In this document: one piece after another, positions 1,347 through 44,353 of the stretch
How the letters are laid out: each line of letters opens with the position of its first letter
Numbering within the stretch: position 1 is the stretch's first letter
Assembly (NCBI GenBank): GCA_015661005.1
Contig: JACTTX010000014.1
Location: forward strand, 1-44,728
Length of the DNA: 44,728 bases
Reading direction: 5' to 3'
DNA from: Candidatus Magasanikiibacteriota bacterium
GTDB taxonomy: Bacteria; Patescibacteriota; Patescibacteriia; Magasanikbacterales; JACTTX01
Notes under the pieces: generated by a model
What the model saw: the letters and a program-made list of their open reading frames with translations, nothing else
Database searches by the model: none
What the model was told of the DNA's origin: nothing
Translations under genes and position numbers: made by a program

Positions 1347-1354
1347 AAGGTTTG

Positions 1355-1383
1355 ATAGTATCAGATGCCAAGATTTCAAGCAA
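1355..1383 (-). promoter_or_regulatory. Promoter of mntA-hepT
   Basis: On the minus strand TTGCTT (1383-1378) is followed after 17 nt by TACTAT (1360-1355), and the ATG at 1346 lies 8 nt further on. The transcript would carry almost no leader, which is consistent with the absence of a Shine-Dalgarno sequence. Confidence 0.5.
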
Positions 1384-1397
1384 TTTAACGCCGTCCA

Positions 1398-2036: not shown

Positions 2037-2046
2037 AATTTTTGAG

Positions 2047-2265: not shown

Positions 2266-3378
2266 TTATTGCAATTGAACCAAAATATCCGTCTCCTTCC
2301 CCTCTCTTAAGATACGCAAATTGACGCTCGCGCCCGGCTTGTAGGCCGCCAAAATTTCCGGCAAAGTTTTTCCCATTCCGAGCGCCTCGTCTTCCACCGC
2401 TAACAGTATATCACCAACTTTAAGCGTCGGCACACCTTTCTTGACCGTCCGCGCCGCCGTTACCACCGCGCCACTGCGGCCCGCGCCGGTAATGCCGCGC
2501 ACCGCCGTGCGGGCAAGATCTAAAAATTTAACACCGAGCGCGGCGCGGGTAGCAACTTTTTTCTCCAGCAAGCCGTCAATTATTTTTGGCAAAGTTTGAA
2601 CCGGCACGATATTAGCAAGAGAATTCAAAACGCCCTCGGTCTCGCCGCTCCTGTAAAGGCCGACTATTTCACCACGGTCATTAAAAACCGGCGCGCCCTG
2701 ATAGGCGGCGACATTTTGAATGGCGCCGGCCGTGTAAAGTTCTTCCGCGGAACGGTTTAAGGCGCACGTTGGCGTGGCGCAAAAAATCGCGTTTGAATTT
2801 TTGAGCAGGGTCTGGGAAATTATGCCGCCGGAAACAGGAATGGAGAGGACGGAGCCGATTTCAGTTTCCGAAAGTTTTCCGAGCGGCGCGACGGTGTACG
2901 GGCCGCCGCCGACATTCGCAAAAACAATTCCGGTCAAAGGATCCTGAACGGTTTCTTTGGCGCGCAAGATTGATCCATCCGGCAGAAGCACGTCAAAAGT
3001 TTGTTTGGCAAACGAGCCGTCCGTCAAAATCCAGCCGTCGGCCGTGAGCAAGACGCCGGCGCCAATTTTGTCTTCCTCTTTCACAATTCGCGCCGCGTAA
3101 GGTGCAGAAGTGGAAACGAAGGACGGTCGCAAAATTGTTACCGTCACCTGCCTGAACAGTGAAACGCGATTCACATCAAGAATTGTTTTTGGCGGCGCTT
3201 GCAAAGACGAATTCAAAAAAATTGACGAAGTCGCCGGTTTGAGCCAGGCAATGGTAACGAATGATCCGACAACACCGGCGAACAATCCAAAGACGCACGC
3301 CAAAATAATGGTGGGGAGACGGCGTAGCGGATCCGACGCGCTCGTATCCGGCGGCAAATGCGGGGCGTGAACGGCCAT
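2266..3378 (-). CDS. Membrane-anchored HtrA/trypsin-like pseudoprotease with PDZ domain
   Basis: The product of about 370 residues has one membrane helix near residues 20-43, a trypsin-like beta-barrel region (about 95-265) and a C-terminal PDZ-like domain (about 275-370, ending VNLRILREGKETDILVQLQ). The catalytic triad looks lost. The His motif reads GWILTDGSFA instead of TNxHV, the Asp region reads DPLTGIVFAN instead of DxAVLK, and the Ser motif GNSGGP reads AYQGAPV. It may therefore be a binding or chaperone protein. The start is uncertain: the ATG at 3378 is used, but an ATG at 3438 overlaps the stop of the upstream gene and would suit coupling. Three copies of an 11-bp repeat lie between them. 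Confidence 0.7.
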   Translation of the reverse strand: MAVHAPHLPPDTSASDPLRRLPTIILACVFGLFAGVVGSFVTIAWLKPATSSIFLNSSLQAPPKTILDVNRVSLFRQVTVTILRPSFVSTSAPYAARIVKEEDKIGAGVLLTADGWILTDGSFAKQTFDVLLPDGSILRAKETVQDPLTGIVFANVGGGPYTVAPLGKLSETEIGSVLSIPVSGGIISQTLLKNSNAIFCATPTCALNRSAEELYTAGAIQNVAAYQGAPVFNDRGEIVGLYRSGETEGVLNSLANIVPVQTLPKIIDGLLEKKVATRAALGVKFLDLARTAVRGITGAGRSGAVVTAARTVKKGVPTLKVGDILLAVEDEALGMGKTLPEILAAYKPGASVNLRILREGKETDILVQLQ

Positions 3379-30200: not shown

Positions 30201-33200
30201 CCGGTTCAAAGAGCGCCAAATCAAGATCATCATTTTGGGCGCTGGCGGTGAGCTCCCCTTCCACCGACCCCATCTTTACCGCCGCGTTCACGCAAACATT
30301 GGCGCCACCGGTGCGGCCGTCCCACGGCGTTGGACTTTGAATTTTGGCATCACACTGTTCCAGCACGGCGGGTTTCACCGGTTTGATGGTGAGCAAACCC
30401 TTGCCGAGTTTTTGCGAAGCCATTTCTTTGGCGCTGATGCTCACCGGTTTATTCTCATCCGTTTTTTTCTTGGCGAGCACTTGCTGTTTGTATGCCGATT
30501 CCGTGCCAGCGATAAAATCAATTTGCGCATTCCCATATCCGGAATCCGTCTCCAATGCCGGACGCCAATCCCAATTAAAAAGTTTGGGATTGAGTTGAAT
30601 GCAGGGCTTGCCTTCAGCCAAAGGCGTGGCGCGATAAAACAAAGCCGCCGAAGAATTGGACGGGTCTTTAATGACACCGAGTTTGTCAACCGTCATTTCC
30701 GCCGGTTCAACAATCACGGATCCGACTTTGCACGGCTGATTGTCGGCGTTTGTTTGGAAAAGGAAACAGTACGCGCCGTTAAGGTTCCCGCCGCAGGAGT
30801 CCGTATGCGCCATATTCATCTGATTGTTCAAACCCTTAATGCCGGTTCCCAAAGTAACGCGATAGTAGGTCTGACCGGAAAGCGGTTCGGCCGGCAAAAC
30901 ATTAAATCCGCTTTGCTTGTCTTTCAAAACCGGCAGATATTCCAAATCTTTGAGTTTGACCGGCGCGGGATCAACGGCGGCGCACGTGGCTTCGGCCGTG
31001 CCAACACATTTCTCAACCAGAATTGTGCTCAACGCGCCTTGATTCACGGTCAGCGTTGCCGGATCAACGGGAATGTTAAACTTGACGCCCATTTGAAAAT
31101 TACTGCAGACCGAAGTCCCATCCGGCCACTTGGTTGACGGCGAGGGCGAGGGGAAAGTTTTTCCGCCACCGGTTTGGTCACATTCTTCCACAACTTTCGG
31201 CGGGAAAAGTTCCGGGTCTATTTCTCCGCTGGTGGTGAAAGCCCAGGTGTAAGAGGATGTTTTGGCCGGTGGACTGCAGGTCTCCCCGCAAAAACCGGCC
31301 GGACAACAAGTTGTTCCTTTGGCGCAGGCCTGGGGGGCGGCGTTACAATCCTGCACCAAGAAATTTACGCTGTTTGAACAGATGGACGGGTTTTGATCAC
31401 AGAAAGCGGCGCTATAAGTTGAACCGGCCGGAGCTTTGGCATCTTCAAAAACGCGCACGGCGCCGGAGATGGTACCGGCCGGAACAGCGGTGCTGATTTG
31501 TTTGTCTTTATACGCGCCGGTTGCGAGCCCGCCCAGCTCCGATGTTCCGGCCGTGCCGGTAAAGCGGACGGACCCTTGCGACCCAAAATTTTCCCCATAG
31601 AGTATTACCGGATAGGCGCCGCTGGCCGGGCCGTTGTCCGGCACGATGGAACAAAGCCCCGGTCCGGCCGCGCCGTCCGTCACTTGGAATTTAACTTTAT
31701 TGCTTCCGTCTTTGGCGGAAGAAGAAAAAACTTGCACGAGATATTCTCCGGCGTTCGCCTTTGGCGCTTTCAAAATAAGTTTGGTGTCAGCCCAAGTATT
31801 TTTGCATCCGTCCGGAAAGATTAAATCAGCGAGGACCGGCGTCCCTTCCGCGCCGTCGGCGGCGAGCGGAATAAAGTAAGCTTTATTTTTATACATTCCA
31901 AAACCGGCGCCGGTAACGGTAAGATATTGCCCCGGCGGTCCGACATTTGGTGAAAGTGTTTGGATAGTTGGGGCCGTGCCAAGATTCGGCGCTTCCACAA
32001 TGAAAGGCACGCCGTTACTTTCCGCCGCCACTTTGACAAAAACATTGGTGGCGCCAGCCGAGAGATTGGGAATCGTGGCGGAAAGAACTGTGTCCGACCA
32101 AGTGACGGACGCGGCGGAATTGCCGCCAAAGAGGAGATTGCTTTTGTCCTGCTTGGCGCCAAAGCCGGCGCCGTAAATGGTCACCGGCGTTTCATTGGCC
32201 ACGCCGTGCTCGGGCACAACAGCGCAAACAGATGGCCGCACCACATTGCTCAAAGTGAAGACGCCGGAGAAGAACGGGCCGTAATCGTCGTTAGTTCTAT
32301 CCGTGCCTTTGTCGGTTTTTACTTCCAGCGGACCGTTTTTGGCGGTGGCTGGCGCGATAACAAAAATTTTATTGGTTGTCCACGGAACAAAAGCGCCGTA
32401 GCCGCAAGTGGCATAAGGCGCCGCCACGTCATCAGTTTGATCATTCGGATCGCCCAAAAATTTCACCGTACCGGCGTTCACGCCAAAATTGACGCCGGTG
32501 ATAGTGATGACCGTTCCGGCGGCGCCGTCCTTTGGCGTCACACCGGTAATTTTTGGCAACTCCACGCACGTCCCGTTCTCGCAAAGCCCGCTTCCGCAAT
32601 CGGCTGACTGCTGACAGTTAGCGCCAGCGCACAAACCGCAATCCCCGCCCGCAAGCGAACAATCTACGCCGGTTTCATCTGTGGACGGTGTTTGTTTGCC
32701 GTCAAAGCAATGCGGCGCGCGGGCGATGACGCCGACAGCCGCGGATGTGACATCGTGATCATCAAGATCATAAGCGCGGACTTCCAATTTATGCGTTGAT
32801 TTTGGCGCCAGCGCGTCCGTTAACCAGTTGACCGTTCCGACCTCGCCGGATTTTCCGTAGACGGAATCAATAACCGCGCCATCAGCGATAAATTCCACTT
32901 TGGCAATACCGCTGTCATCATTGACTGTGGCCCGCCAATCCAATGGCGCGCCAATCGCGATTGATTCATTGTTGTCAGGCGTTGTGATAGCCGCGTTTGG
33001 CGCGGTAGCATCAATCAACATGCCAACGGTAAAAGTTCCTTGGCAAGGATTACCGGTTGAGCACGATAAGGAAGAGCCGTCAGCCGCTTTCAGCGTGCCG
33101 GCCACTTGCAGGTTGAATGTCCCGCCCGGACGGAAGCAGTGGATATTTTGGTTGGGCGACTCGCAGAATTCGTCCGGCGTTAAAGTGATTTCACTTCCCT

Positions 33201-33912
33201 GAACCAACTGCGCCACCGGCACGGGTTGACCGCCGGAGGTGATGGTAATATTTTTTCCGACACTGTCCGGTTGAATGTCTTTGCTGAAACCCAAACGAAC
33301 TTTGACGTTCCTGATGCCAACTGTTCCGGTGGGCGTTATTTTTTTGAGGACAAATGTTTTTCCAAATCCGCCGCCGCCGCCGCCCGCGCCGCCCAGTCCC
33401 CCGCCGCCGACAGCGGCCTCGCCCGGAATCTGCGTGCCGGTGGCGGTTTGCAAACTGGTCAAAACAAATTGGGTGATGGCAAAAGCCGAAAGCACAATGA
33501 CCAGTCCAATCGCGCCGTTAGTCAGAATTTTTTTGGCCGTACCGATTTTTTCTTCACTGCCGGCCGCCGTCATCCAGGCAAAACCGCCGTAAAGCACAAT
33601 GCCAATGGCAATGACGCCAAGAAGCGACAGCACAATGCGGATTATCCGCGCGATAATCAAACGAATGTCCGTGGTGGCCAGACCAGTGTTGGCTTGCGCG
33701 AGTTCCGTGAGACCGGTTTCAACTTGAGCATGAACCGGTGGCGCGGAGAACAAAATAAAAAAAGAAAAACTAAAAACCAAGAACAGTGCGCAAAAAAACC
33801 GTGCCGTGCAAAAATCGTGTTCTCCAATCAAGAACGACTTTTGCACGGCACGGTTTTTTTGACCATGCAGTGTTCTCTGTTCTTTGTTCTCTGTTATATT
33901 TATTCTATTCAT
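24256..33912 (-). CDS. Giant secreted surface protein: pilin-like N-terminus, TIG, Ig-like and cysteine-rich repeats
   Basis: The product has about 3,218 residues. A signal peptide (ending PPVHAQ near residue 62) is followed by two membrane helices (about 78-148) of the T4SS-pilin/VirB2-like type (DIRLIIARIIRIVLSLLG...YGGFAWM). Next come four IPT/TIG domains (near 460, 560, 650 and 755), Ig-like domains (about 880-1620), two clusters of DUF4215/Myxococcus cysteine-rich repeats (about 1630-1860 and 2540-2855, for example CGNGEIESGEDCDDNN), and a final beta-rich region. The cysteines imply disulfides outside the cell. A role in host attachment is inferred. The start is uncertain (ATG 33912 or GTG 33927), because a palindromic repeat lies between it and the signal peptide. 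Confidence 0.82.
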   Translation of the reverse strand: MNRINITENKEQRTLHGQKNRAVQKSFLIGEHDFCTARFFCALFLVFSFSFFILFSAPPVHAQVETGLTELAQANTGLATTDIRLIIARIIRIVLSLLGVIAIGIVLYGGFAWMTAAGSEEKIGTAKKILTNGAIGLVIVLSAFAITQFVLTSLQTATGTQIPGEAAVGGGGLGGAGGGGGGFGKTFVLKKITPTGTVGIRNVKVRLGFSKDIQPDSVGKNITITSGGQPVPVAQLVQGSEITLTPDEFCESPNQNIHCFRPGGTFNLQVAGTLKAADGSSLSCSTGNPCQGTFTVGMLIDATAPNAAITTPDNNESIAIGAPLDWRATVNDDSGIAKVEFIADGAVIDSVYGKSGEVGTVNWLTDALAPKSTHKLEVRAYDLDDHDVTSAAVGVIARAPHCFDGKQTPSTDETGVDCSLAGGDCGLCAGANCQQSADCGSGLCENGTCVELPKITGVTPKDGAAGTVITITGVNFGVNAGTVKFLGDPNDQTDDVAAPYATCGYGAFVPWTTNKIFVIAPATAKNGPLEVKTDKGTDRTNDDYGPFFSGVFTLSNVVRPSVCAVVPEHGVANETPVTIYGAGFGAKQDKSNLLFGGNSAASVTWSDTVLSATIPNLSAGATNVFVKVAAESNGVPFIVEAPNLGTAPTIQTLSPNVGPPGQYLTVTGAGFGMYKNKAYFIPLAADGAEGTPVLADLIFPDGCKNTWADTKLILKAPKANAGEYLVQVFSSSAKDGSNKVKFQVTDGAAGPGLCSIVPDNGPASGAYPVILYGENFGSQGSVRFTGTAGTSELGGLATGAYKDKQISTAVPAGTISGAVRVFEDAKAPAGSTYSAAFCDQNPSICSNSVNFLVQDCNAAPQACAKGTTCCPAGFCGETCSPPAKTSSYTWAFTTSGEIDPELFPPKVVEECDQTGGGKTFPSPSPSTKWPDGTSVCSNFQMGVKFNIPVDPATLTVNQGALSTILVEKCVGTAEATCAAVDPAPVKLKDLEYLPVLKDKQSGFNVLPAEPLSGQTYYRVTLGTGIKGLNNQMNMAHTDSCGGNLNGAYCFLFQTNADNQPCKVGSVIVEPAEMTVDKLGVIKDPSNSSAALFYRATPLAEGKPCIQLNPKLFNWDWRPALETDSGYGNAQIDFIAGTESAYKQQVLAKKKTDENKPVSISAKEMASQKLGKGLLTIKPVKPAVLEQCDAKIQSPTPWDGRTGGANVCVNAAVKMGSVEGELTASAQNDDLDLALFEPAASLVKNSTYRVLVSTNVKSAANESMPENKNCGVGLAYCFNFKTRDSDEKCAVTSVNVTPSSITAVTYGRIKNQDGTDVDFLGNPHPDDPCIVLNPQDYTWKWLVDAAHELNVKLADAATAEKKQVDALKSTGPSSPAKVTATVQNIAGESQVTVAIPNPQVIAYAPNCAAACVNAKISATVNQAMNAASVTPGNVRLYTCDDEGCLVPLDDAAHRVDATVSALEIESAQKTKITEIEIKPVNGLKKNTYYRAALFGGDTGVTSANLAPLSGMNYPLDAPTAFSWKFKTKDDDKLCAIDKVDVQPLSFVTSKIGVVQKFAAKAYAAKDSCSPQAGQELRATDYNWSWNSTDAEVALLFSGGTPPVYGQPLDVLPVAGGACTSICTNLGSTAFPATCGNNKVELGEDCDDGNLINGDGCGKSCLAEGAYVIKDADGKITAESLCGNKKVEFSHNLAKYGGEQCDGTPGCTDKCLLSGSGTTTSTAAVAGVVCGNGDIGPGEACDDKNLISNDGCSTSCLREGSAPHDAVCGNGEIESGEDCDDNNTKIGDGCNAGCLAEGSFVQKDSVGKILSKSTCGNGKVEYPNKRINEGGEQCDGGAGCTPQCLFGGSVNGAICGNGVRETGETCEAQTGADSLTDPVQYFYAKGNGKLLDGAQSSFIKALAELKEGSATFKIQCGFTNDADCAAAFGVDNKTCCSPHPKIIPSSAAPSGPGACRNPAITFAFDRKLDPSTLSGNVYLAKVLDDPSVCAANNWPVLRSFGDPLRYSCALPDIIGSAVVTDSGHGSIVTLPVNKVLDPGKDYATQYEFFVYGVKDGKKGVTGLDGVSITNASGAPSASWAFWTGENICALNKVTIDPKASTLTKAGAQITLKAVADSTHGGVQQEISGIPNVYDWKWQWGGNSDSVKLAGGADSQAAIVEALNKNGVAQINVQAVISADNISAVSTVGKTVSGAGTVQVQLCEHPWQGLPEQVVSKYDFALWYCKDGGNGALSEMTWNEIPGYDEAGVPTTGDPETLDIYQLQNPLINSATGQKDSIAIRIFKNPGHLSALDWYHSKNFQGTPTELKIGGYRAVRDGNTIFVDFANVSGHTIYTNIMAVALSSAAGAEATEIFEQVLKNIRFNISLDGKSSGVCEKNTLKNCGADYECDAGAVVGVCLSSRSKVARDTIRLEDFVNISNLLGKAKLGGSYPLLAAGSFIPGYAVSKWNAWITLGNALGQALPTDPLNVFNQCPAGYDSNTCWNAASADFVCPSGSHVYVYRVNSAGYQLASDFEFKDAAFPGLPLQYTTNNVCVKNMVAGAGGCGDGKISPNEECDGVLDQGIWHGYDVSVACTKDGVPGAKTAPCNKDCSQPDFTNVSCVTGPPTCGNGSVDYGELCDDGLQNGSYNSCNKTCNGFSALGYCGDKIIHDAKKDALGDVLPGHGVNFGETCDLGQRCSNNSKQSCGKDDDCLIYKNDGSLAGNSGPCVSMNIFGTNAIDSCRYDCKGPGPFCGNGAVEGIFEQCDGPVVCATTDGKYGLQKCTSFCSWASTDDNGQPICEEIPPQKTAPIPTCGDGKLDSNLGEQCDNGVANGTPCSPPYGKEQSCSYCSKDFCKLVYLSGGYCDDGKKNGNEQCDVQDYGCSSGTDYVEAACDSKCKLSSFEEAFPNFCKQCQTAKGANYILGAVIDNELGWLPGDETVALSYKNKPVLSLKTDSRPLLGLDLKPQYESSFDFKDLADDSACTPWRLVIKPVKPLDVSYKVMELDVDSSSPPPQVGPFVTLLLPEKNWIMTPILPKNWLRIVVEWDASSPLNNSFEMRAFAETLDVNHVRVSWNGLNEQTSNIVDTEKCRGWDGNGNVGASIIDQYVRSRCTDRYPYIEAWKFTKNDEKGVTIPKYTRLVTTVAPPNVGGLPVSFKFYLRIAKTNINVAARDIRDFKPKVTVYQPAVNGIIKAVQEFTTPNNYSSGATPPGYWYLFDYNSQSGFNGIFNVKNTFTVNEP
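33779..33871. repeat. Palindromic repeat, capped family, locus E, inside the start region of the giant gene
   Basis: The cap at 33816-33836 (CGTGTTCTC...AAGAACG) sits on a 24-bp stem with one mismatch (33792-33815 with 33837-33860), and AGAACA.TG outer arms extend it. Read in the gene's frame it encodes about 25 residues just before the hydrophobic signal core. Confidence 0.75.
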
Positions 33913-33948
33913 CTTGTTTGTTGTCACTATGTCCGGCTGTCACTGACT

Positions 33949-35790
33949 TCACTTCACCAAATCACACCCGCTTGACCAACTGCCGTTGCAACAAGTATTC
34001 TGTCCGGCTGGCGGCGTGCCGGTGCAACCCGGACCGGCGGATGGTAAGAAGCAGTTTTGATACAAATCCGTAACGCTGGACGGCAAACTGGGGATGTAGG
34101 TGGATTTTGGCGCAAAAGTTGAATGATTCAAGGAAAGCAGTGTGCCTTTTCCACCGCTGACTTCTTTTTCTTCCGCTGTGCGCCAAAAACCCACCGCGGC
34201 TTTGGCCGGTGTGGCGTCCAAAGTGATGCCGTCAAAGGAAGAATAAGACATCGGACTTGACCACTGCACGGTAATCGGATCCTTGGCGTTCACCTGGCCG
34301 CCGCTGGCGCCCGGGACGGGTTGAACCGCCAGAATTACCGGCGGAGAAATTTTCACTTCGGCCGTGGTGGAAAAAGTCATAGAAAAATTATCATCCGGCG
34401 GCCCATTGGCCACGCCGTTTTTGCCCGCGCCTTTAATGCCGCCGCCGTCCAAAGAATTTCCGGCCACGTCCACGATTCCGTGATAACCAAAATAGCCGTC
34501 AGTGTGAAAACGTCCGAGCGGTTCATTCGGAACTTCCAAATCCGCGGCTTTGACTTCCAAACGGAAAGTATTGCTGGCTGGCAGACAAAAAATATCGGCG
34601 CCGCAAGCGTTTTGTCCGCACTTCTCGTTGGACGTGAATTCAATCGTGCGATAATCATTGCTGATTTTCCAGACGCCCACGACAACGGCGTTATTATTTT
34701 CCGTCAGAACGGCGTTGGCAAATGATTTGAGATCACCTTTTTTAATTGTGCCGGCGGCGGAAAAAGGATCCACCGGTTCGTTGAAACTCACCTGCACGAT
34801 AACATTGCGCGGTTCCGTGGCGTCCGGAATCGGCTGAACGCCCGTAACTTGCGGCGGCGTGTTGTCCGAATTGGTGCTAACTTCAAAATCCCAATCGTAA
34901 TCAGATGCCGTGCCGCCAAAAGCCGAAGCGCCGGAATCCAATTGTAAGGCGGAGGTTAAGTGCGCCGCGTAAGCCGTGTTCTTGACGGTTGAACCCAAAA
35001 GCGGCACCGGATCAAAGACAAAAATGCGCTTGAAGTTTGGATCTTTCTCATCATCAGTGGTGATGACGTTCACGTCGGTCAATAATTGTTTTTCCGCGCC
35101 GGCTTCCGGCTTCGCAAAAAGTTCAAAGGTCTTGGTGTTGATTTTGTCATAAACCAACGCGCCGTTTTTTTCCACCGGCACGCCAAGTTTACCGTCGCCG
35201 TTGGTGTCTTCAATCAATGACGCTAATTTTATTTTTGGTTTGAAAGTGATGATGATCTTGGTGTTGCGCGGAATGTTCACGGCGCCGCGAGCCGGATAAT
35301 GATCGCTGATGACGGTGCCAAGCGCCGAATGACCGTTAAAGCTGGAGAGATCCGGTCCCTCGCCGCCCAGTCCCAGAACTTCCGGAGCCGTGCCGGTGGC
35401 CGCGGCGAGGCGGGACAAAATAAATTGGGTGATGGCAAAGGCCGAAAGAATAATCACCAGTCCGATCACCCCGTTGATCAGAATTTTTTTGGCGGTGTCA
35501 ATTTTTTCCGCATTGCCGGCCGAAGTCATCCACATGAATCCGCCGTAAAGAGTGATGACCAAAGCAATGATGCCCAAAAGTGAAAGAACGATGCGGATGA
35601 TCCGGGCGATAATGATGCGGATATCCGTGGTGCCGAGTCCGCTTTGCGCGCCAACTTGCTCAAGTTCCGTGGCTTGGGCGCGCACCAGGGTCGGGCTGGA
35701 AAAAATCGTGAAAAATCCGACCAAAAGAAAAACCGCCACGGCTAACACAGCCACCGTTTTGGCGGTCTTTCCTTTCTCCGAATTCAGCAT
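33949..35790 (-). CDS. Secreted protein with pilin-like N-terminus and Ig-like domains
   Basis: This is a 613-residue paralogue of the N-terminal part of the giant protein. A signal peptide (about residues 11-37, ending LVRAQA) and two helices (about 58-125) with DIRIIIARIIRIVLSLLG and ILINGVIGLVIILSAFAITQF are followed by Ig-like (Big_5-type) beta domains (PARGAVNIPRNTKIIITF, EPRNVIVQVSFNEPVDP). A short Cys-rich end (CTGTPPAGQNTCC) completes it. The ATG at 35790 is chosen because GAAGGG lies upstream; an in-frame start at 35922 would overlap the yqeY-like gene. Confidence 0.78.
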   Translation of the reverse strand: MLNSEKGKTAKTVAVLAVAVFLLVGFFTIFSSPTLVRAQATELEQVGAQSGLGTTDIRIIIARIIRIVLSLLGIIALVITLYGGFMWMTSAGNAEKIDTAKKILINGVIGLVIILSAFAITQFILSRLAAATGTAPEVLGLGGEGPDLSSFNGHSALGTVISDHYPARGAVNIPRNTKIIITFKPKIKLASLIEDTNGDGKLGVPVEKNGALVYDKINTKTFELFAKPEAGAEKQLLTDVNVITTDDEKDPNFKRIFVFDPVPLLGSTVKNTAYAAHLTSALQLDSGASAFGGTASDYDWDFEVSTNSDNTPPQVTGVQPIPDATEPRNVIVQVSFNEPVDPFSAAGTIKKGDLKSFANAVLTENNNAVVVGVWKISNDYRTIEFTSNEKCGQNACGADIFCLPASNTFRLEVKAADLEVPNEPLGRFHTDGYFGYHGIVDVAGNSLDGGGIKGAGKNGVANGPPDDNFSMTFSTTAEVKISPPVILAVQPVPGASGGQVNAKDPITVQWSSPMSYSSFDGITLDATPAKAAVGFWRTAEEKEVSGGKGTLLSLNHSTFAPKSTYIPSLPSSVTDLYQNCFLPSAGPGCTGTPPAGQNTCCNGSWSSGCDLVK

Positions 35791-35860
35791 AGTTTCCCTT
35801 CGAAGAATACGCATGATGTTTAAGTGCACGATTGCTTTCCAACGTTTGACGATTTTCCGG

Positions 35861-36310
35861 TTATCCGGTCGGCAATATTTTTGCCAAAACGGCTTTAACC
35901 GTGTTGCCGTCAGCGGCGCCACTGACTTTTTTCATTACCATTCCAATCACTTTACCGGCGTCCTTCATGGAGGTGGCGCCAGTTTCCGCCGCCGTGTCCC
36001 GCACGATTTTCTCCAAAGCCGCTGGATCCATTGACGGCGGCAAGAATACTTTCAGAACTGCTTGCTCAACTTTGGTTTTTCCCACAAAGTCGGCCCGGCC
36101 GCCTTTTTCATAATCTGCCAAAGCATCCGTCAACTGTTTCACCTGCCGCCTGACGACGGCAACGACTTCTTCATCAGTGAGAAGGCGCCGGGCCTCAATC
36201 TCCGCGTTTTTCACAGCGGACTTGAGCAGACGCAAAGTCCCAATCTTTGCGTCATCGCGGGCTTTGAAACTGACCATGAATTGTTTTTCAATGTCATCCT
36301 TCAGAGACAT
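35861..36310 (-). CDS. GatB/YqeY domain protein
   Basis: This is a 149-residue, helical protein of the YqeY family, related to the tail domain of GatB. MSLKDDIEKQF, GTLRLLKSAVKNAEIEARR and SMKDAGKVIGMVMKKVSGAADG are typical. The family is linked to tRNA amidation or tRNA binding, without a firm function. The ATG at 36310 is 4 nt after the rpsU stop, so the longer in-frame start at 36349 is not needed. Confidence 0.88.
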   Translation of the reverse strand: MSLKDDIEKQFMVSFKARDDAKIGTLRLLKSAVKNAEIEARRLLTDEEVVAVVRRQVKQLTDALADYEKGGRADFVGKTKVEQAVLKVFLPPSMDPAALEKIVRDTAAETGATSMKDAGKVIGMVMKKVSGAADGNTVKAVLAKILPTG

Positions 36311-36314
36311 AGGT

Positions 36315-36560
36315 CTAAAACTTTCGGCGCGGCTCTTCCTCATCTTCACGGAATTTTCCGACTTTCATCAAGTAAGCGCGCTGTTCCCTCTTGGCTAGAC
36401 GCACGAGCGCGGATTGCCGCAGTAAATTCTTGGATTTTTCCGGCCGACGAAACTGCACTTTTTTGGCTTGGAGCACTTTGCCGGATTCCTGAATGCGTTT
36501 GCGAAAACGACGCATAAAACCGTCAAAGCTCTCCCCTTTTCTTCGTTTCACGATGGCCAC
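36315..36560 (-). CDS. rpsU: 30S ribosomal protein S21
   Basis: This is an 81-residue, highly basic protein with the S21 pattern VAIVKRRKGESFDGFMRRFRK and a tail rich in Arg and Lys. It starts at a GTG at 36560, supported by AGGTGA 6 nt upstream; no ATG fits. S21 helps the 30S subunit bind mRNA. It is followed by the yqeY-like gene, a frequent bacterial pairing. Confidence 0.88.
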   Translation of the reverse strand: MAIVKRRKGESFDGFMRRFRKRIQESGKVLQAKKVQFRRPEKSKNLLRQSALVRLAKREQRAYLMKVGKFREDEEEPRRKF

Positions 36561-36611
36561 AATGTCACCTGCCTTTCTTTTGATGGAAATGAGTAAAAAT
36601 CCCCTGCACAA

Positions 36612-36640
36612 AATGTATCAAAAATGGGGAGAGAGGTCAA
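36612..36640 (-). promoter_or_regulatory. rpsU promoter
   Basis: TTGACC (36640-36635), 17 nt and TACATT (36617-36612) lie about 50 nt before the GTG start at 36560, leaving room for a normal leader with a Shine-Dalgarno sequence. Confidence 0.6.
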
Positions 36641-36647
36641 ATGGATG

Positions 36648-36708
36648 AGGTGTCACTTCTAAAGGTGCCACTTCTAATTTAGAATTGACCCCTTTAGAAG
36701 TGACACCT
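36648..36708. repeat. GGGGACA-type palindrome after hisS
   Basis: Arms of 30 bp (36648-36677 and 36679-36708) match with four mismatches. They contain two units of the AGGTGTCACTTCTAA type, close to the units at 21551. It lies directly after the hisS stop codon and probably terminates hisS. Confidence 0.7.
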
Positions 36709-36710
36709 TT

Positions 36711-38174
36711 TTACTCTCTTCCAATTTTCCGCTTAACGGCACTGACAACTTTCTGAAAATCAACGGTCTCTTGAATGCCGGAGTCCATATCTCTAATAAT
36801 AACGGTCTTGTCAATCACTTCTTTTTGCCCGATGATCAGGGCGTAAGGAATTTTTTTCTCATTGGCGGCTTCCAATTGAAACTTCAAAGAGCCCTTGGAA
36901 AAGGCCTCGGCCGCCGGAATTTTTTCCAAACGCAGCATTTCAAAAAGCACCAAGGCCTTGCGCTTGGCTAGCTCGCCTAATTGCGCCACAAAAAGTTCGT
37001 GTTTATTAATTTCCGGAACGGCAAGCTGACGCATTCGCAACTGTTGAACGGCGCGTTCAATTCCCGGCGCCACGCCGCAGGCCGGCGTTGGCCGACCGCC
37101 CAATTCTTCAACCAACAGATCATACCGCCCGCCGCCGCAAAGCGCGACTTGCGCCGGCATTTTTGCCTCTTCCGCTTCCTTTGGTTCTTTTTCTTTGATC
37201 ACGATTGGCGTCTCATCCGCCACGGCGCCGCTGACGGACAAAACAGCGCCCGGCCCGGCATCAACCGGCGCCACTGGTTCCGCTTTAGGCGTAAACGGCT
37301 CCGGCCAGATTTCAAAAACGGTTTTGGTGTAATAATCAAGCCCGCGGACCAGCGTGTGATTCAAAAAATACGGAATACTAAGCTCATCCAGATATTCCAA
37401 CAAACTCATAAAATGTTTCCGGGATTCTTCCGCCAAAAATTCCAAAATCCGCGGCGCGTTTTCCTTAATGGGTTGACAACCCTCTTCTTTGCAATCAAGA
37501 AGACGCATGGGGTTCTTCACCAGCCGCACTTTGCAATTGTCGCAAAGTTTGCTTCGGTTGGCGCGATAATAATTCACGAGCTCCACCTTATACCGCGTGC
37601 GATCTTCCGCTGTGCCGATGGAATTCAATTGCACGTTCACGGGCAGGCCGAGCTCCGTATAAAATTTGTAGGCCACCAAAATAACTTGCGCATCCGCCAC
37701 CGGCGAGTCATCGCCGATAATTTCATAACCGGCCTGCGTGAATTGACGGAAACGCCCGGCTTGCGGACGATCGTGGCGAAACATTGGCCCCCAATACCAA
37801 AGTTTTACCGGCTGGGGCAGATTCAACATTCCGTGCTGAATGTAAGCACGCACCACGGACGCGGTTGCTTCCGGCCGCAAAGAAATTTTTTCACCGTCCT
37901 TATCTTCAAAAACGTACATTTCTTTTTCCACGATGTCCGTCTGCCTGCCGACAGCGCGAGTGAAAAGCGAGGCCTCTTCCAAAATTGGCGTATCAATGCG
38001 ACCAAAACCATAAGCGTCCGCCAGTTCTTGGGCTTTCCCATAAACCGCCCGCCAATACTTGTCATCTTTGGGCAAAGTGTCTCTCATCCCGCGCAAAAGT
38101 TGCGGCGTTTTTTTGGTGGATTTATAGGGTTCCTTAGGGGCTTCCGGTTTCTTCATAGGGTGATTAAAGGCCAT
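36711..38174 (-). CDS. hisS: Histidyl-tRNA synthetase
   Basis: This is a 487-residue class II synthetase. RGMRDTLP, the motif 2 segment FRHDRPQAGRFRQF, RPEATASVVRAY, RGLDYYTKTVFEI and CGGGRYDLL are present, followed by an anticodon-binding domain. Between FEI and CGGGRYD there is an insertion of about 55 residues rich in Pro, Ala and Glu that is not normal for the family. The start overlaps the end of lepB by 11 bp. Confidence 0.95.
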   Translation of the reverse strand: MAFNHPMKKPEAPKEPYKSTKKTPQLLRGMRDTLPKDDKYWRAVYGKAQELADAYGFGRIDTPILEEASLFTRAVGRQTDIVEKEMYVFEDKDGEKISLRPEATASVVRAYIQHGMLNLPQPVKLWYWGPMFRHDRPQAGRFRQFTQAGYEIIGDDSPVADAQVILVAYKFYTELGLPVNVQLNSIGTAEDRTRYKVELVNYYRANRSKLCDNCKVRLVKNPMRLLDCKEEGCQPIKENAPRILEFLAEESRKHFMSLLEYLDELSIPYFLNHTLVRGLDYYTKTVFEIWPEPFTPKAEPVAPVDAGPGAVLSVSGAVADETPIVIKEKEPKEAEEAKMPAQVALCGGGRYDLLVEELGGRPTPACGVAPGIERAVQQLRMRQLAVPEINKHELFVAQLGELAKRKALVLFEMLRLEKIPAAEAFSKGSLKFQLEAANEKKIPYALIIGQKEVIDKTVIIRDMDSGIQETVDFQKVVSAVKRKIGRE

Positions 38175-38730
38175 ATTGAGGAGCGGTGAAGCGGCTGATT
38201 CTGTTTAACGGCAGTCCCCTGACCCAAGCCCGGCCGACTAAATCATCGCGATGAATGGCGCCGAAACGGCGAGAATCAAAACTTACTTGCCGATGATCGC
38301 CCAAAACAAAATACTGATCTTCATTCAGTTGCAAATCAACGTCGCCCTGCGTGCCCGTTTCCGTCGGCAAATACACCGACTCATCCAATTGTTTTCCCTG
38401 CGGGAGTTCTTGGTTGTAAATAAAGACCTTTCCATTCCCGACTTTCACCCGTTCACCGGGTAGAGCGATGATCCGTTTCAAAAAATACTCCTGCGTGTTT
38501 GGAGCGCGGAATACCACGATGTCGCCACGTAACGGGTCACGAAAGCGATAACTGATTTCATCAATGATCAGATATTCTTTTTCAAAAAAATTCGGCTCCA
38601 TGCTGGCGCCGCGCACCACGAACGGTTTGAACAAAAAATAACGCACGCCAACAATGATGATGGCGGCCATAATAATGACTTTGAGAAACTCGCGCACCGC
38701 GATTAAACGTCTCTGGGCTTCCGGGGTCAT
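38164..38730 (-). CDS. lepB: Signal peptidase I
   Basis: This is a 188-residue protein with one N-terminal membrane helix (about 14-32), the catalytic Ser43 in GASMEPNF and Lys85 in YFLKRIIALPGE, and GDHRQVSFDSRRFG (box E; GDH in place of the common GDN). It removes signal peptides from exported proteins such as the large surface proteins in this window. The gene overlaps hisS downstream. Confidence 0.94.
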   Translation of the reverse strand: MTPEAQRRLIAVREFLKVIIMAAIIIVGVRYFLFKPFVVRGASMEPNFFEKEYLIIDEISYRFRDPLRGDIVVFRAPNTQEYFLKRIIALPGERVKVGNGKVFIYNQELPQGKQLDESVYLPTETGTQGDVDLQLNEDQYFVLGDHRQVSFDSRRFGAIHRDDLVGRAWVRGLPLNRISRFTAPQYGL

Positions 38731-38787
38731 AAGAATTTACTTCAGAATTACGGCAGACTGGTATTATCTGACGACAAAGTAACAATA

Positions 38788-38970
38788 TTATACGCGGGTT
38801 CCGGCAAAAGTCAAGCGCGGACGTTTGATCAATTTTTTGGCCGAGCCGACGTAACCGCGGGTTGTTTCCAATCGCGTCTTTTGGGCGGCTTTGGTGGCGC
38901 CTTTCTGACTGTATCGCGATTTCCTTTGGCGCGTTTCCCGACGTTCGGATTTGGTTTGATGTTGCTTCAT
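38788..38970 (-). CDS. Small, very basic protein
   Basis: The 60-residue product is about one third Lys and Arg (KQHQTKSERRETRQRKSRY). I do not recognise it. Composition suggests a ribosome- or RNA-binding protein. Support for expression is good: AGAGG lies 8 nt before the ATG, and an extended -10 (TGCTATAAT) lies about 40 nt upstream. Confidence 0.6.
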   Translation of the reverse strand: MKQHQTKSERRETRQRKSRYSQKGATKAAQKTRLETTRGYVGSAKKLIKRPRLTFAGTRV

Positions 38971-38998
38971 AAATCGCCTCTAAAAACAGCGCCAACGT

Positions 38999-39007
38999 AT
39001 TATAGCA
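38999..39007 (-). promoter_or_regulatory. Extended -10 promoter of the small basic protein
   Basis: TGCTATAAT on the minus strand is an extended -10 element with a weak -35. It precedes the AGAGG site and the ATG at 38970. Confidence 0.45.
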
Positions 39008-39083
39008 AGCCCTTTTCAAAGGTGATATGATGTGGTAGAGTTGGGGCGAGAAAAACCCGGCATTTGTTCTGCACTCATTCGTT

Positions 39084-39160
39084 GGGCGACTAGCTCAGTT
39101 GGTTAGAGCGCGTCACTGATAATGACGAGGTCTCTGGTTCGATTCCAGAGTCGCCCACCA
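39084..39160 (+). tRNA. tRNA-Ile (GAT)
   Basis: Acceptor GGGCGAC pairs with GTCGCCC. The anticodon loop CTGATAA carries GAT. The T arm is CTCTGGTTCGATTCCAGAG. ACCA is encoded. Confidence 0.95.
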
Positions 39161-39217
39161 TAATCTGACTTTCAGAAAATAGTAGTAGGCCGCCCAAAAA
39201 GCATGGCCTTTGGTGAT

Positions 39218-39246
39218 TTTGCATTATTTAAAATTAGTGATACAAT
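39218..39246 (+). promoter_or_regulatory. Promoter of tRNA-Val
   Basis: TTTGCA (39218-39223), 17 nt and TACAAT (39241-39246) with an upstream TGA lie about 45 nt before the tRNA-Val gene. Confidence 0.5.
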
Positions 39247-39290
39247 CTTTCAAGATTTTTTACGCGATTATTGACGGTCTACTTAATCTT

Positions 39291-39367
39291 GGGCAGCTAG
39301 CTCAGTTGGTTAGAGCGCCACATTGACATTGTGGAGGTCACAAGTTCGACTCTTGTGCTGCCCACCA
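39291..39367 (+). tRNA. tRNA-Val (GAC)
   Basis: Acceptor GGGCAGC pairs with GCTGCCC. The anticodon stem CCACA/TGTGG encloses TTGACAT with anticodon GAC. The T arm is ACAAGTTCGACTCTTGT. ACCA is encoded. Confidence 0.95.
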
Positions 39368-39416
39368 GTTAGGAAATATCAAATTATTCGGCCCAGCTTT
39401 TTTGAATTTTTTGAAT

Positions 39417-39446
39417 TTGACAGTTTTTGCTCAATCGTGCTACACT
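39417..39446 (+). promoter_or_regulatory. Promoter of the RRM protein gene
   Basis: TTGACA (39417-39422), 18 nt and TACACT (39441-39446) put the transcript start near 39453, giving a leader of about 94 nt before the ATG at 39547. Confidence 0.65.
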
Positions 39447-39486
39447 ATTTTTCGCCAATTTATCGTATCGTGTAATCATTTATGTC

Positions 39487-39545
39487 GGTGCATAAATGAG
39501 TAAGCGAAAAGGTAGAGAGGTGCCTTATTACTCATTTAATGCATC
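39487..39545 (+). promoter_or_regulatory. Leader hairpin before the RRM gene
   Basis: TGCATAAATGAGTAAG pairs with CTTATTACTCATTTAATGCA, with small bulges, around a loop that holds the only purine-rich, Shine-Dalgarno-like segment (AGAGAGGTG). It may be a temperature- or protein-controlled switch. An in-frame ATG at 39496 lies in its 5' arm. Confidence 0.45.
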
Positions 39546-39546
39546 T

Positions 39547-39879
39547 ATGGACCAGAATCCAGCCAAACTTTTCGTCGGAAACCTGTCTTATCAGGCCGAC
39601 GAAGCGTCAATCCGGGACCTGTTCTCGCAACACGGGACCGTTTCTGACTTGTATCTCCCGCCGAACAAGGGCTTTGCCTTTGTCACGATGGGATCAGTCG
39701 CTGAAGCTGACGCCGCCATGAATGCCTTGAACAACGCGGACCACATGGGCCGCTCCATCAAGGTTGACAAAGCCCGTCCGCCAAAGCCGCGCTCCGATTT
39801 CGGAGGCGGCGATCGTGGCGGTCGCGGTGGTGGTGGCCGTGGCGGTTACGGCGGCGGTGGTGGTGGCGGCAATTGGTAA
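39547..39879 (+). CDS. Glycine-rich RRM RNA-binding protein
   Basis: This is a 110-residue protein with one RRM: RNP2 LFVGNL at residues 8-13 and RNP1 KGFAFVTM at 41-48. A Gly/Arg-rich tail (GGGDRGGRGGGGRGGYGG) follows, as in cold-induced cyanobacterial Rbp proteins. It should bind single-stranded RNA. The ATG at 39547 gives the family's usual beginning; the in-frame ATG at 39496 would add 17 residues from the leader hairpin. Confidence 0.9.
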   Translation: MDQNPAKLFVGNLSYQADEASIRDLFSQHGTVSDLYLPPNKGFAFVTMGSVAEADAAMNALNNADHMGRSIKVDKARPPKPRSDFGGGDRGGRGGGGRGGYGGGGGGGNW

Positions 39880-39973
39880 TCAGTCGCCCGTAGGCGGCTC
39901 CGACCATTTCGGACACGATGCGCCCTCCGGTTAAACGGGCGCTCACTTCCAAAAGAATCACCGAGTGAGTTAT

Positions 39974-40008
39974 CAAAAATCCGTCTGCCTTCGGGCGACG
40001 GATTTTTG
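39974..40008 (+). terminator. Terminator of the RRM gene
   Basis: CAAAAATCCGTC-TGCC and GGC-GACGGATTTTTG form a long stem with a TTCG loop, ending in TTTTTG. Confidence 0.85.
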
Positions 40009-40036
40009 TTTAGCGAAAATTTCGGTTTGTAAAATG

Positions 40037-40128
40037 AAACACACCTATCTGTTCGACACGGGTCCAGCCGCCTTATCAATTCCGACATTAAGGTGGCGCA
40101 AACCCATGTCTCACAGATAGGTGTGTTT
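40037..40128. ncRNA. Three-tier stem-loop, possible structured RNA
   Basis: A 16-bp perfect outer stem (40037-40052 with 40113-40128) encloses ACACGGGT/ACCCATGT (one mismatch) and a 9-bp inner stem (40067-40075 with 40089-40097). It lies between a terminator and the 3' end of the dehydrogenase-like gene and has no reading frame. It could be a minus-strand terminator structure, a small RNA or a miniature element. Confidence 0.45.
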
Positions 40129-40143
40129 ACATTTTTAGCAATA

Positions 40144-41442
40144 CTACTTTCCGCCAAAAAAAATCCGGTAAATTTTATTTTGATTGTCATCAGACACAAA
40201 CATGGAATCGCCGACGAATAAAATATCCACCGGCCGACCGCGAACAAGACCAGCATTGGAAAGAAACCCATCGACAAAAATTTCTGTTTTTGACGGGTGA
40301 GCCGCGGCTTCGGCCAGTGTGGACGGTGGACCATTTTCAAAAATTATCCGATAGATCCGGTATCCATCGGCTGGTGTCCGGTTCCATGAACCGTGACTGG
40401 CAACAAAAAGATTGTTCGCATATTCTTTTGGCCAAACGCTTCCCGCGCCGCGTTCAAAAAATCTTAAACCCAAGGGCGCAATGTGCGCCGGCATGGTGGC
40501 AACCGGCGCGATGGTTTTGTCACAAGACGCGACGGCGTTAAATTTTTTATCCGGAACTTTATTGCCATAACAATTCGGCCACCCGTAATCGCGCCCGCGT
40601 TCAATAATGTTGACTTCTTCTGGCGGCAGATTATTGCCCAGCAAATCGCGCCCGTTGTCCGTGCCGTAAAGCGCGTCCCCGCGCCAAGCAATACCAACAG
40701 AGTTGCGCAGACCTTTGGCAAAAATCGCACAGCCTTTACCGCCGGAGGAAGTCGGTTCAAGATCGCATTCAAGGACAGCGGCGCGCTCGGCATCCTTTTC
40801 ATTGCAAACATTACAAGATGATCCTACGGAAACATAAGCGCGCCCGTCATGGATAGAAACGGTGCGCGTAAAATGTCCGCCCGAAGGAAGCGGCGCGATG
40901 GTTTGCAGAGTATCCATGTCAGCTTGCAAATTATGGTCAGCGTCTTTGACGCGAATCAATTTATCTTCAAGCGCAATGTAAAGCCACTCCCCGTTCCAAA
41001 CCAAGCCGTGCGGATTTTTTTGATTGGCAATAAAAGTTGTAACAGAGGTGACGTGGCCGACGCCGTCCGCGCCTTTGGCGGCAATAACTTTGCCTTGTTT
41101 GGTGAGAGAAATGTAAAGAACGCCGTCCTTGTAAGCCATCATCCGGGCGCCGGAATTGGGTCCGGGATTGGAAATGAAAGAACCGCCGAACTCAAGAAAG
41201 GTATTGATGCGAAAACCGGCGGGAAGTTGGACAAAAGAAAGAGCGGGATCGGCGACGGGCGGCACGGCCGCGGCATCGGTATTCATGCCTTCTTGCGTCA
41301 GCGGCGCATTTGTTGACGGCGCATAAGAAATCCGAAAGCCGTAGACAAAATAAGCCGCACTCAAAAAGACCGCAAACATCAGGACTAAGATGATGAGCAA
41401 AACTTTGGTTGTCTTTGAAAAATTGCTGGAACCGACGGGCAT
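40144..41442 (-). CDS. Membrane-anchored sorbosone/glucose dehydrogenase-like beta-propeller protein
   Basis: This is a 432-residue protein with a membrane anchor (about residues 9-33) and then a six-bladed propeller of the PQQ-dependent sugar dehydrogenase type: LPAGFRINTFLE, NPHGLVWNGEWLYIA, GLRNSVGIAW, NNLPPEEVNIIERGRDYGWPNCYG, LFVASHGSWNR and GRPVDILF. Whether PQQ is bound is unknown. The ATG at 41442 is chosen, because TATACT ends exactly 6 nt before it; an ATG at 41460 would lie upstream of that transcript start. Confidence 0.85.
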   Translation of the reverse strand: MPVGSSNFSKTTKVLLIILVLMFAVFLSAAYFVYGFRISYAPSTNAPLTQEGMNTDAAAVPPVADPALSFVQLPAGFRINTFLEFGGSFISNPGPNSGARMMAYKDGVLYISLTKQGKVIAAKGADGVGHVTSVTTFIANQKNPHGLVWNGEWLYIALEDKLIRVKDADHNLQADMDTLQTIAPLPSGGHFTRTVSIHDGRAYVSVGSSCNVCNEKDAERAAVLECDLEPTSSGGKGCAIFAKGLRNSVGIAWRGDALYGTDNGRDLLGNNLPPEEVNIIERGRDYGWPNCYGNKVPDKKFNAVASCDKTIAPVATMPAHIAPLGLRFFERGAGSVWPKEYANNLFVASHGSWNRTPADGYRIYRIIFENGPPSTLAEAAAHPSKTEIFVDGFLSNAGLVRGRPVDILFVGDSMFVSDDNQNKIYRIFFGGK

Positions 41443-41448
41443 ATCTTC

Positions 41449-41454
41449 AGTATA
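41449..41454 (-). promoter_or_regulatory. Leaderless-type -10 box of the dehydrogenase-like gene
   Basis: On the minus strand TATACT is followed by GAAGAT and then the ATG at 41442. Confidence 0.5.
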
Positions 41455-41529
41455 ACGCAATGGTGCAACGGATAGAAACGTTTTAGAAAATTAAATGAAA
41501 AAGCCCTCGACCAGCAACGTTTGCTTAGA

Positions 41530-41558
41530 AATGTCAAAAGCCCCTTGCGGGGGCTTTG
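41530..41558 (-). terminator. Terminator downstream of 16S rRNA
   Basis: On the minus strand AAAGCCCC-CGCAA-GGGGCTTTT is followed by a T-rich stretch, about 130 nt after the 16S 3' end. The region between holds further hairpins (GCGCGCTTC/GAAGCGCG) but no tRNA or 23S sequence. Confidence 0.75.
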
Positions 41559-41814
41559 GTAATCGTGATATTCACTTAAGAAATGTGACAGGAACGTGCG
41601 TCTATTCGTGATGAGAGATCCAATTGGAATCTCCCACCTCGACCGGAGATGGACGCGCTTCAAAGAAGCGCGCCGCTTTCTCCCTAGAAAGGAGGTGATC
41701 CATCCACAGCTTCCGCTACGGATGCCTTGTTACGACTTAGTCCCTATTGCTGATCCTACCTTCGGCCCTTGCGGGCCTTCGGGTATTACCAACTCTCTTG
41801 ACTTGACGGGCGGT

Positions 41815-42749
41815 ATTGGGGTCAATTTTCATTGCCTCACACCACCGGACGAACGGTTTTCCCGTATCCTGGCGGTTTCCAAAGAGGCGTCAAAATCGGC
41901 TTTGAAGTTATGCTTCTTGCCAAACTGACGCAAATCGTTCCGCATTTGTTGGATGCGCGCGAAGCCGTCTTCCGTAAGATGTTCTTTCCGACGAATCATC
42001 AGAACGATCTCGCGAAAAATTTTATACGACTTCGCTTTCTTGGCTTGAAGCGGATATTGATCAATGAAAGGAAAAAAAATTTCTTCCATTTCGCGAGCGC
42101 TTGTGATTTTCAACTTGGCATGCGGATACCATCCATAACGCTCATAAGAGCAGTCATAAATTTTCCCGCAGCCCATTGTAACCACAATTCGCTCTAAAAT
42201 TTCACGATCATCGGCTCGAAGCTCAATTTCGAACTCGGCCTTTACTTCTATCCCGCTTCGAAGAGTCCTGTGTTGGTTAATACTTACTGAAAAGGATCCT
42301 TCGCCATCAATAAATCCAGCAACATAATGCGGATTCAATGAATCTCTTTGAATTTGTTCCTTCCCAATCGGTGCGCGCAGAGAAAAATTTCTCTCGTACG
42401 ACTTCCGTTTGGTACTACGAACTCTGCTGACTTCTTGCATAGTATCGGTCATAGATTACTCTATTTCCTTTCTTTCCTCCAAAGAACTATACAAGATCTC
42501 CCCGGGTCATGATTGAAAACATTTTTCCGCATCTCGGTTCAACCGATCACGATATGATTATTTGTGGTTGGCTTCCTCGTGTACTCGATGAGTCGCCAAT
42601 CATATCGCCTGTATGTGAACTCAAGCTACGGAATGCCGCCTGGCCCTTGAGCGCCGTCCTCGCGAACGCGCGCCTGCCTATTGGCTTTCGGTTTTCCACT
42701 AACCGAGCAGGATTTGCACCTGCTTTTTTTAATCACTGCCGGGCACCCG
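41815..42749 (-). other. Intron in 16S rRNA near E. coli position 1396-1400, class uncertain
   Basis: About 935 nt separate TTTTGTACT (ends at 42750) from ACCGCCCGTC (starts at 41814), which are contiguous in normal 16S. The exon end TTTGTACT can pair with GGTGCAAA about 30 nt inside the intron, with a final U-G wobble, as in a group I P1. I could not find a clear P7 pair, and the intron does not end in G directly before the exon. The 3' boundary is uncertain by several nt. The 5' 300 nt are non-coding and full of short hairpins. Confidence 0.75.
41829..42452 (-). CDS. LAGLIDADG homing endonuclease, single motif
   Basis: This is a 207-residue protein with one LAGLIDADG motif (HYVAGFIDGEGSFSV, about residues 42-56), so it should work as a homodimer (LAGLIDADG_1 type). 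Conserved later segments include EIELRADDREIL and HLTEDGFARIQQMRNDL. It would cut the intronless 16S gene and spread the intron. The stop codon is only 14 nt before the 3' exon. An alternative start lies at 42440. Confidence 0.88.
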   Translation of the reverse strand: MTDTMQEVSRVRSTKRKSYERNFSLRAPIGKEQIQRDSLNPHYVAGFIDGEGSFSVSINQHRTLRSGIEVKAEFEIELRADDREILERIVVTMGCGKIYDCSYERYGWYPHAKLKITSAREMEEIFFPFIDQYPLQAKKAKSYKIFREIVLMIRRKEHLTEDGFARIQQMRNDLRQFGKKHNFKADFDASLETARIRENRSSGGVRQ

Positions 42750-43166
42750 AGTACAAAACCCGAGAACGTATTCAACGCGCCATAGATGATACGCGTTTAC
42801 TAGCGATTCCGACTTCATGAGGTCGAGTTGCAGACCTCAATCTGAACTGGGGGGCGTTTTGTTGGGATTTGCTCCGCCTCGCGGCTTGGCTTCCCATTGT
42901 AACACCCCATTGTAGCACGTGTGTGGCCCCAGACGTAAGAGCCATGCTGATTTGGCGTCATCCCCGCCTTCCTCGATCTTGACGATCGCGGTCTGTTGTG
43001 TGCATTTAACACAACATAGGGGTTGCGCTCGATAGACCACTTAAGGCAACATCTCACGACTCGAGCTGACGACAACCATGCAGCACCTGTACAGCACCCT
43101 CGAAGGCGTCCCACTTTCATGGGATTTGCAGCTGTATGTCAAGCCTGGGTAAGGTTACTCGTTTAC

Positions 43167-43347: not shown

Positions 43348-44353
43348 CAATCTTTGTGTTTCCACAGAGGTTGGACTATATCATTCTCTGAAGCTTTTCC
43401 ATTTATTCTTCTTTTGTTGCATCATCTGTTCCACGATTTCTCGCGGAAACGAGGTGAGTGCAACAACTTCAGAGATCCAGCGTTCTTGAAGTTCAGGATC
43501 GTTGTAAATAAGGATTACCTTAGGGAGCATGCTCGCAACCTTGATGTGCGGAAGAATGATACGGAGAAACTTTTTGAGTTCTTCCGTGGAGAACCATAAT
43601 CGGTAATATTGCGACCGCCGACTATCGCGTCGCCGTCCAATTGCTCCGACATGTGTTCTCACCTTCCACACTTTCTCAAGATATTGTGCAAGCAGAATGA
43701 CGGAATCTTCTTCAAAACCGTCAGTGCACAATACTCCCTTGCGCGCATTGCCCACAATCGAGCCGTCATCTTGCCACCACACGGCAAGTGAAAGCGGTGT
43801 TAACATATTCAGCCACTTGCGCCGAATCAGAAACCGTTTTCTCTTGTGTGTCAACCGATAAAGTTCGGTCAGCGACTCTAACGCCCGACTCTGATAACGT
43901 AATTTTTCGTTCATGCTATATCCGCCATCGCGCTTCTGCCGAAAAATGTTCGCTTCGCTGGAGATCTCTTTTAGCTGATCCGTTTTCGAGCGAAAGTATT
44001 CTTCTCGCACAATGGAATGCCTGAATGAAAAACGCGCGTTTTTGTATCCTTCATTTAGCTTAAGCGAACCATCACCCAGCAATGAACCGAGGATAATTGC
44101 TTTTACACGATCCGACAAAGACACCGAATCTCTTGATGATTGCTCATGCATAGAGTTTAAGAGTGCCTTCTGTCTCCTTACCTTCATAGTCTCTACGGGG
44201 TCGCCTCTTCGCTTAAAACGATTTGCGACTTCCCTCGGGATTGTCCTCAACATGCGTTAAGGAGTTTCCCCGATATAGCTGAATGCACACTCCGACGTCG
44301 CCGTCGGAGGGGACACCTTTTGGTCGTATATTTTTATAGCGCGACCGGGATTT
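43348..44353 (-). other. Group I intron in 16S rRNA at E. coli position 788
   Basis: The 1,006-nt intron lies between GGGATTAGAT and ACCCCTGTAGTCC. The exon ends in U and the intron ends in G, as group I splicing requires. P7 is visible: GACTAT in GAGACTAT (44193-44186) pairs with ATAGTC in GATATAGTCC (43382-43373), the classical R and S elements. The endonuclease gene sits between them, in the P8 region. Confidence 0.88.
43381..44187 (-). CDS. LAGLIDADG homing endonuclease, two motifs
   Basis: This is a 268-residue protein with two motifs, AIILGSLLGDGSL (about 30-42) and LAVWWQDDGSI (about 134-144), so it works as a monomer (LAGLIDADG_2 type). The ATG at 44187 is used: it lies in the P7 5' strand (GAGACTATG), and the TGA stop lies in the P7 3' strand (TGATATAGTCC), so the gene exactly fills the space between them. 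Longer in-frame starts up to 44253 would overlap the intron core. Confidence 0.85.
   Translation of the reverse strand: MKVRRQKALLNSMHEQSSRDSVSLSDRVKAIILGSLLGDGSLKLNEGYKNARFSFRHSIVREEYFRSKTDQLKEISSEANIFRQKRDGGYSMNEKLRYQSRALESLTELYRLTHKRKRFLIRRKWLNMLTPLSLAVWWQDDGSIVGNARKGVLCTDGFEEDSVILLAQYLEKVWKVRTHVGAIGRRRDSRRSQYYRLWFSTEELKKFLRIILPHIKVASMLPKVILIYNDPELQERWISEVVALTSFPREIVEQMMQQKKNKWKSFRE

Follow-up and report, generated by a model that had tools for sequence, protein, structure and literature searches.

The decoding region of the 16S rRNA gene in the window (the whole stretch of 44,728 nucleotides analysed here, which is an entire contig) is split between C1397 and A1398 (E. coli numbering) by a 934-nt insert that is very probably a IIC-like group II ribozyme, with a LAGLIDADG homing endonuclease rather than a reverse transcriptase in its domain IV (Table 1). 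The first-pass annotation had recognised the insert, had found no group I core in it and had left the choice between a divergent group I intron and another splicing type. The insert is real, uninterrupted relatives reading its exact ligated sequence, and the second option is the one that held, the group II assignment coming from Rfam matches, EBS1, D5 and D6. In keeping with this, P7 and the terminal G were reported missing because the intron is group II, and it appeared to be coreless because the endonuclease ORF runs through the catalytic hairpin D5. That this hairpin is both coding sequence and of slightly unusual shape likewise accounts for the lack of any reported match in the insert to Rfam's own group II D5-D6 model.

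Boundaries of the insert and its 16S context

Encoded on the minus strand, the 16S gene runs off the contig end and is the single copy found in a genome of 870 kb that is 98% complete. An order-mate, G400, carries this contig as part of a Magasanikbacteria MAG, which assigns the host to that order of Patescibacteria. The interrupted sequence reads ...TTGTACTC/ACCGCCCGTC, the first intron base being 42748 and the last 41815 on the minus strand, such that position 42749, earlier given as the end of the insert, is the last base of the exon. In a search of 57 order-level genomes, the window's own included, an uninterrupted site was absent from that genome and from five others carrying the group II motif. 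Such a site is present in 43 order-level relatives, 42 of which read exactly TTGTACTCACCGCCCGTC, the product predicted from ligation of TTGTACTC to ACCGCCCGTC, the remaining one carrying A at 1396. Since intronless relatives match the predicted ligated sequence, comparison fixes the splice site at either end, and the boundary is unique because T precedes exon A1398 and no alternative cut restores the 16S sequence. Intron-bearing relatives and relatives with an uninterrupted site occur within one genus (G384/G388, G380/G383). The 3′ end of the insert, AAU, fits AY, from which the 3′ ends of some relatives depart (GGA in L015, CA in L001), while its 5′ end, GGGUGCC, places two bases ahead of a GUGCC-like start, as against GUGYG.

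Rfam detected neither 23S nor 5S downstream of the 16S gene in 30000-41700; what follows, at 39084-41693, is a dehydrogenase-like ORF together with two tRNA genes on the opposite strand, and the rRNA genes therefore look unlinked.

Table 1. Elements of the interrupted 16S gene, with positions counted along the window.
Feature	Position	Strand	Basis
Group II (IIC-like) intron, 934 nt	41815..42748	minus	Rfam matches, EBS1/D5/D6, empty-site comparison
5′ exon end TTGTACTC, 16S up to C1397; last 7 nt UGUACUC = IBS1	42749..42756	minus	sequence, intronless relatives
Domain I, 5′ part: RF02003 group-II-D1D4-4, 29.2 bits (below gathering score), E 5.6e-4	42621..42725	minus	Rfam
EBS1 GAGUACA, then CGAGGAAG; pairs with UGUACUC of the 5′ exon over 7 Watson-Crick bp	42580..42586	minus	similar context in relatives
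Domain IV element: RF01998 group-II-D1D4-1, 42.2 bits (gathering score 35)	42357..42470	minus	Rfam
Domain IV conserved motif AGAAGUCAGCAGAGUUCGUAGUACC, read ..EVSRVRST.. by the ORF	42411..42435	minus	relatives and sequence
ORF, 207 aa, single-motif LAGLIDADG homing endonuclease	41829..42452	minus	profile search, structures, predicted fold
Domain V (D5) ACCGCCAGGAUACGGGAAAACCGUUCGUCCGGUGGU; CGC triad with G.U, extra bulged A, UC bulge, GAAAA loop; wholly inside ORF	41841..41876	minus	covariation, models
D6-like hairpin, single bulged A; apical part holds ORF stop (41831-41829)	41815..41840	minus	predicted fold
Predicted branch-point A, 8th nt from intron 3′ end, single bulge	41822	minus	fold; inferred
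3′ exon ACCGCCCGTCAAG.., 16S from A1398	41795..41814	minus	Rfam and sequence

Exon recognition and the catalytic domains

The two Rfam matches stand in the order expected of a group II intron, RF02003 lying upstream of RF01998. Introns inserted between 1397 and 1398, the window's included, form class 1; apart from L004, the others whose 5′ part could be read have EBS1 at about the same position. Comparison supports the EBS1-IBS1 pairing, with exon base 1396 covarying with the facing EBS1 base in all 29 introns in which EBS1 was located (21 with U facing A, eight with A facing U; Fisher p 2e-7, kinship ignored). This count was used in place of a permutation test of EBS1, some permutations being identical to the real word, and the exon-intron covariation at 1396 provides a ready test of exon recognition.

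The exception, L004, is a Taylorbacteria intron of 1430 nt (737-2166, plus strand) at the same site, having a normal D5 and a divergent domain I. EBS1 was not found in it and it was left out of the analysis. An ORF upstream in this locus reads a KKSAEFVVP-like peptide, which corresponds to the domain IV motif in a different frame; L004 is possibly a nested or rebuilt intron.

The D5 triad of the window's intron reads CGC/GUG. Among class-1 introns D5 is represented by 14 distinct sequences, in which 99% of cells are paired and two-sided changes occur at six pairs, with a covariation score beating all 500 shuffles and all slides; the outcome was the same for class 2, in which the insertion lies one or two bases downstream and the intron starts with an A-rich linker. 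A D5 model (R1), of which the window is itself part, scores 65 bits at 41839-41882, and matches at E<1e-6 were obtained in 22 of 380 sampled genomes. Both classes have an upper stem of 4 bp and a loop of 5 nt. A bulged A between the triad-adjoining pair and the GGR stretch is invariant in 21 of 21 class-1 D5s and absent from class 2, and the n-n′ pair beside it covaries (C-G, G-C, U-A). The extra bulged A, the 4-bp upper stem and the 5-nt loop set the class-1 D5 apart from the usual D5, such that it is not certain to be catalytically competent; if active, the bulged-A D5 would widen the known shapes of the most conserved part of group II introns.

At the 3′ end a clear D6 bulged A is not evident in every relative. 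As previously noted, ATTGACCCC occurs at the 3′ junctions of both introns in this 16S gene (41826 and 43351, minus strand). In the insert it forms the 3′ strand of D6 (AUUG-A-CCCC), the corresponding stretch differing in relatives. A meaning shared by the two introns was rejected, the repeat looking like chance and being present also at 36684.

Overlap of the endonuclease ORF with the RNA core

The ORF is a LAGLIDADG_1 member (E 9e-20; motif VAGFIDGEG) ending 14 nt before the exon, as the first-pass annotation had stated, and the suspected overlap of coding sequence and core was borne out in that D5 lies entirely within it. Its start codon (42452-42450) falls within the domain IV element, and it runs through all of D5 before stopping in D6. 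AlphaFold gives a confident endonuclease fold at residues 41-175 with the α-β-β-α-β-β-α order of the LAGLIDADG fold, and pLDDT below 50 at residues 1-16 and 196-207. Both tails are thus predicted to be disordered and outside the endonuclease fold, and their codons fall in intron RNA elements. Residues of about 35-180 match solved structures of I-OnuI-type LAGLIDADG endonucleases (best E 5e-39); these are double-motif monomers whereas the window's ORF has one motif, from which its product is expected to act as a homodimer.

How D5 relates to the reading frame was tallied by us over 34 introns in which an ORF could be recognised, among them the window's; L081, whose ORF is broken, was omitted. 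Eight read D5 in the window's frame, seven in a second frame and three in a third; in eight D5 holds the stop codon, and in a further eight D5 follows it. An ORF-less intron of 486 nt at the same site (L056) has an identical D5, its relative L017 having the ORF, and in L045 part of the ORF has been lost and D5 stands in another frame yet is unchanged. Among the eight ORFs that share the window's frame through D5, identity at four-fold degenerate sites was seen in 90% of comparisons for D5 and 85% for the domain IV motif, as against 33% for the endonuclease core. The conservation of these sites and the persistence of D5 across frames, stops and an ORF-less intron indicate, by comparison of sequences, that RNA rather than protein constrains both ends of the ORF. 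Selection for an ORF covering D5 was considered and found no support, about half of the ORFs stopping before or inside D5 and those that read through using all three frames; by our own estimate, the read-through frames roughly match the chance expectation for open frames.

A more speculative reading, which we hold to be unlikely, joins two proposals: that ribosomes translating the ORF, which covers the domain IV element at its start and all of D5 at its end, would have to melt the active site, so that each precursor would be either translated or spliced and the overlap would act as a switch limiting endonuclease made from pre-rRNA, and that the invariant bulged A of D5 may represent a further functional variant of the catalytic helix. 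Separately, a small GUAA hairpin (42464-42451, minus strand) within the domain IV element overlaps the ORF start codon and could mask it from ribosomes.

Alternative readings and known relatives

It is improbable that the insert is a dead or non-splicing group II remnant, with the intervening sequence retained or cut out without ligation. The odd D5 and 5′ end would suit such a remnant, as would the existence of relatives with damaged ORFs such as L045; the insert, however, breaks the decoding centre of the only 16S gene found, and D5, EBS1 and the splice sites are kept across many families. Very improbable is the divergent group I intron raised earlier, with a P3-P7 core hidden in the ORF. 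It would suit the conserved rRNA site and the LAGLIDADG ORF, as well as the presence in this 16S gene of a probable group I intron, whereas the Rfam search gave no group I match in the insert at E<=5 and did give group II matches, the empty-site boundaries lack the exon U and intron G, and both D5 and EBS1 are present with covariation. LAGLIDADG genes occur in archaeal rRNA introns too, in keeping with a bulge-helix-bulge intron excised by a protein endonuclease, a reading with next to no probability given that the archaeal-type splicing endonuclease PF01974 was not found in the 98%-complete genome, with four archaeal control genomes positive, and that group II architecture accounts for the sequence.

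The group II intron is of an already catalogued kind, the group II-LHE introns of CPR 16S genes. Group II-like insertions have been described at 16IS9 (position 1400) of these genes, 39 of 53 with LAGLIDADG, in the main text of a 2024 study (PMC11270868). With those insertions the window's intron shares the host group, a 16S site within a few bases of theirs, a Rfam group II match, LAGLIDADG_1 and the lack of a reverse transcriptase; D5, splice sites, EBS1 and the ORF-core overlap, which do not figure in the main-text passages compared, are given here for the window's intron. A bacterial rns-1396 group II-LHE family on a IIC backbone was placed in Thiotrichaceae only by the main text of a 2026 survey (PMC13190283), in which CPR introns do not appear, and the present comparison places the type across many families of Patescibacteria. 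As described there, the rns-1396 introns resemble the window's in the 16S region occupied, in a single-motif endonuclease in domain IV and in IIC features, and likewise in the report of EBS1 but no EBS2 and in the extra bases before the 5′ motif. By description their D5 is 34 nt in most families, as compared with the bulged-A form of class 1. Neither an ORF containing D5 nor a bulged-A D5 was found in the main-text passages compared from PMC11270868 and PMC13190283, and the claim of novelty extends as far as those passages.

Outside rRNA, an ltrA-bearing group II intron from an integron on an E. coli plasmid (L052) has the domain IV motif (AGAAGUCAGCAGA..GGCAUAGUAGCC) and the start and end of D5 (ACCGCC..GGGUGGUGU) in common with the window's intron. 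Unlike the latter it encodes a reverse transcriptase, its domain IV motif being noncoding upstream of ltrA and its D5 following the ORF. From its integron location we take L052 to be of the IIC-attC type. Assignment of the window's intron as IIC-like draws on the domain IV motif it shares with IIC introns, on its triad and on published classification, and is a qualified one, the test being partly based on our own label for L052 and on PMC13190283.

By analogy with these families, splicing, branching, DNA cutting and homing would proceed as follows. In the 16S precursor EBS1 would hold the 5′ exon and D5 would form the active site, the intron leaving by branching from the D6 bulged A or by hydrolysis to restore TTGTACTC-ACCGCCCGTC. 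Homing would consist in endonuclease cleavage of 16S genes lacking the intron, at the same conserved position, with the intron copied in during repair. So tightly is domain IV filled by the ORF that it begins in the domain IV motif and ends through D5 into D6. No group II maturase was found in the genome, and supply of one from elsewhere in it was rejected, the sole reverse transcriptase found (L050, 184 aa) being away from the intron locus, weakly like several reverse transcriptase families and adjacent to a DGR-like variable gene. In the L050 locus (1294-3259, G000 contig 44) this short enzyme carries YADD, and it is in the C-terminus of the neighbouring gene that the DGR-like variability lies.

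The covariance search for group I subtypes proposed earlier gave a divided outcome, with no match in the insert but a weak one (23.9 bits, below the Rfam cut-off) in the other 16S intron (43352-44339, minus strand), which follows ..GATTAGAT and carries a LAGLIDADG_2 ORF of 290 aa. This second intron is probably group I, and two intron types probably share the one 16S gene.
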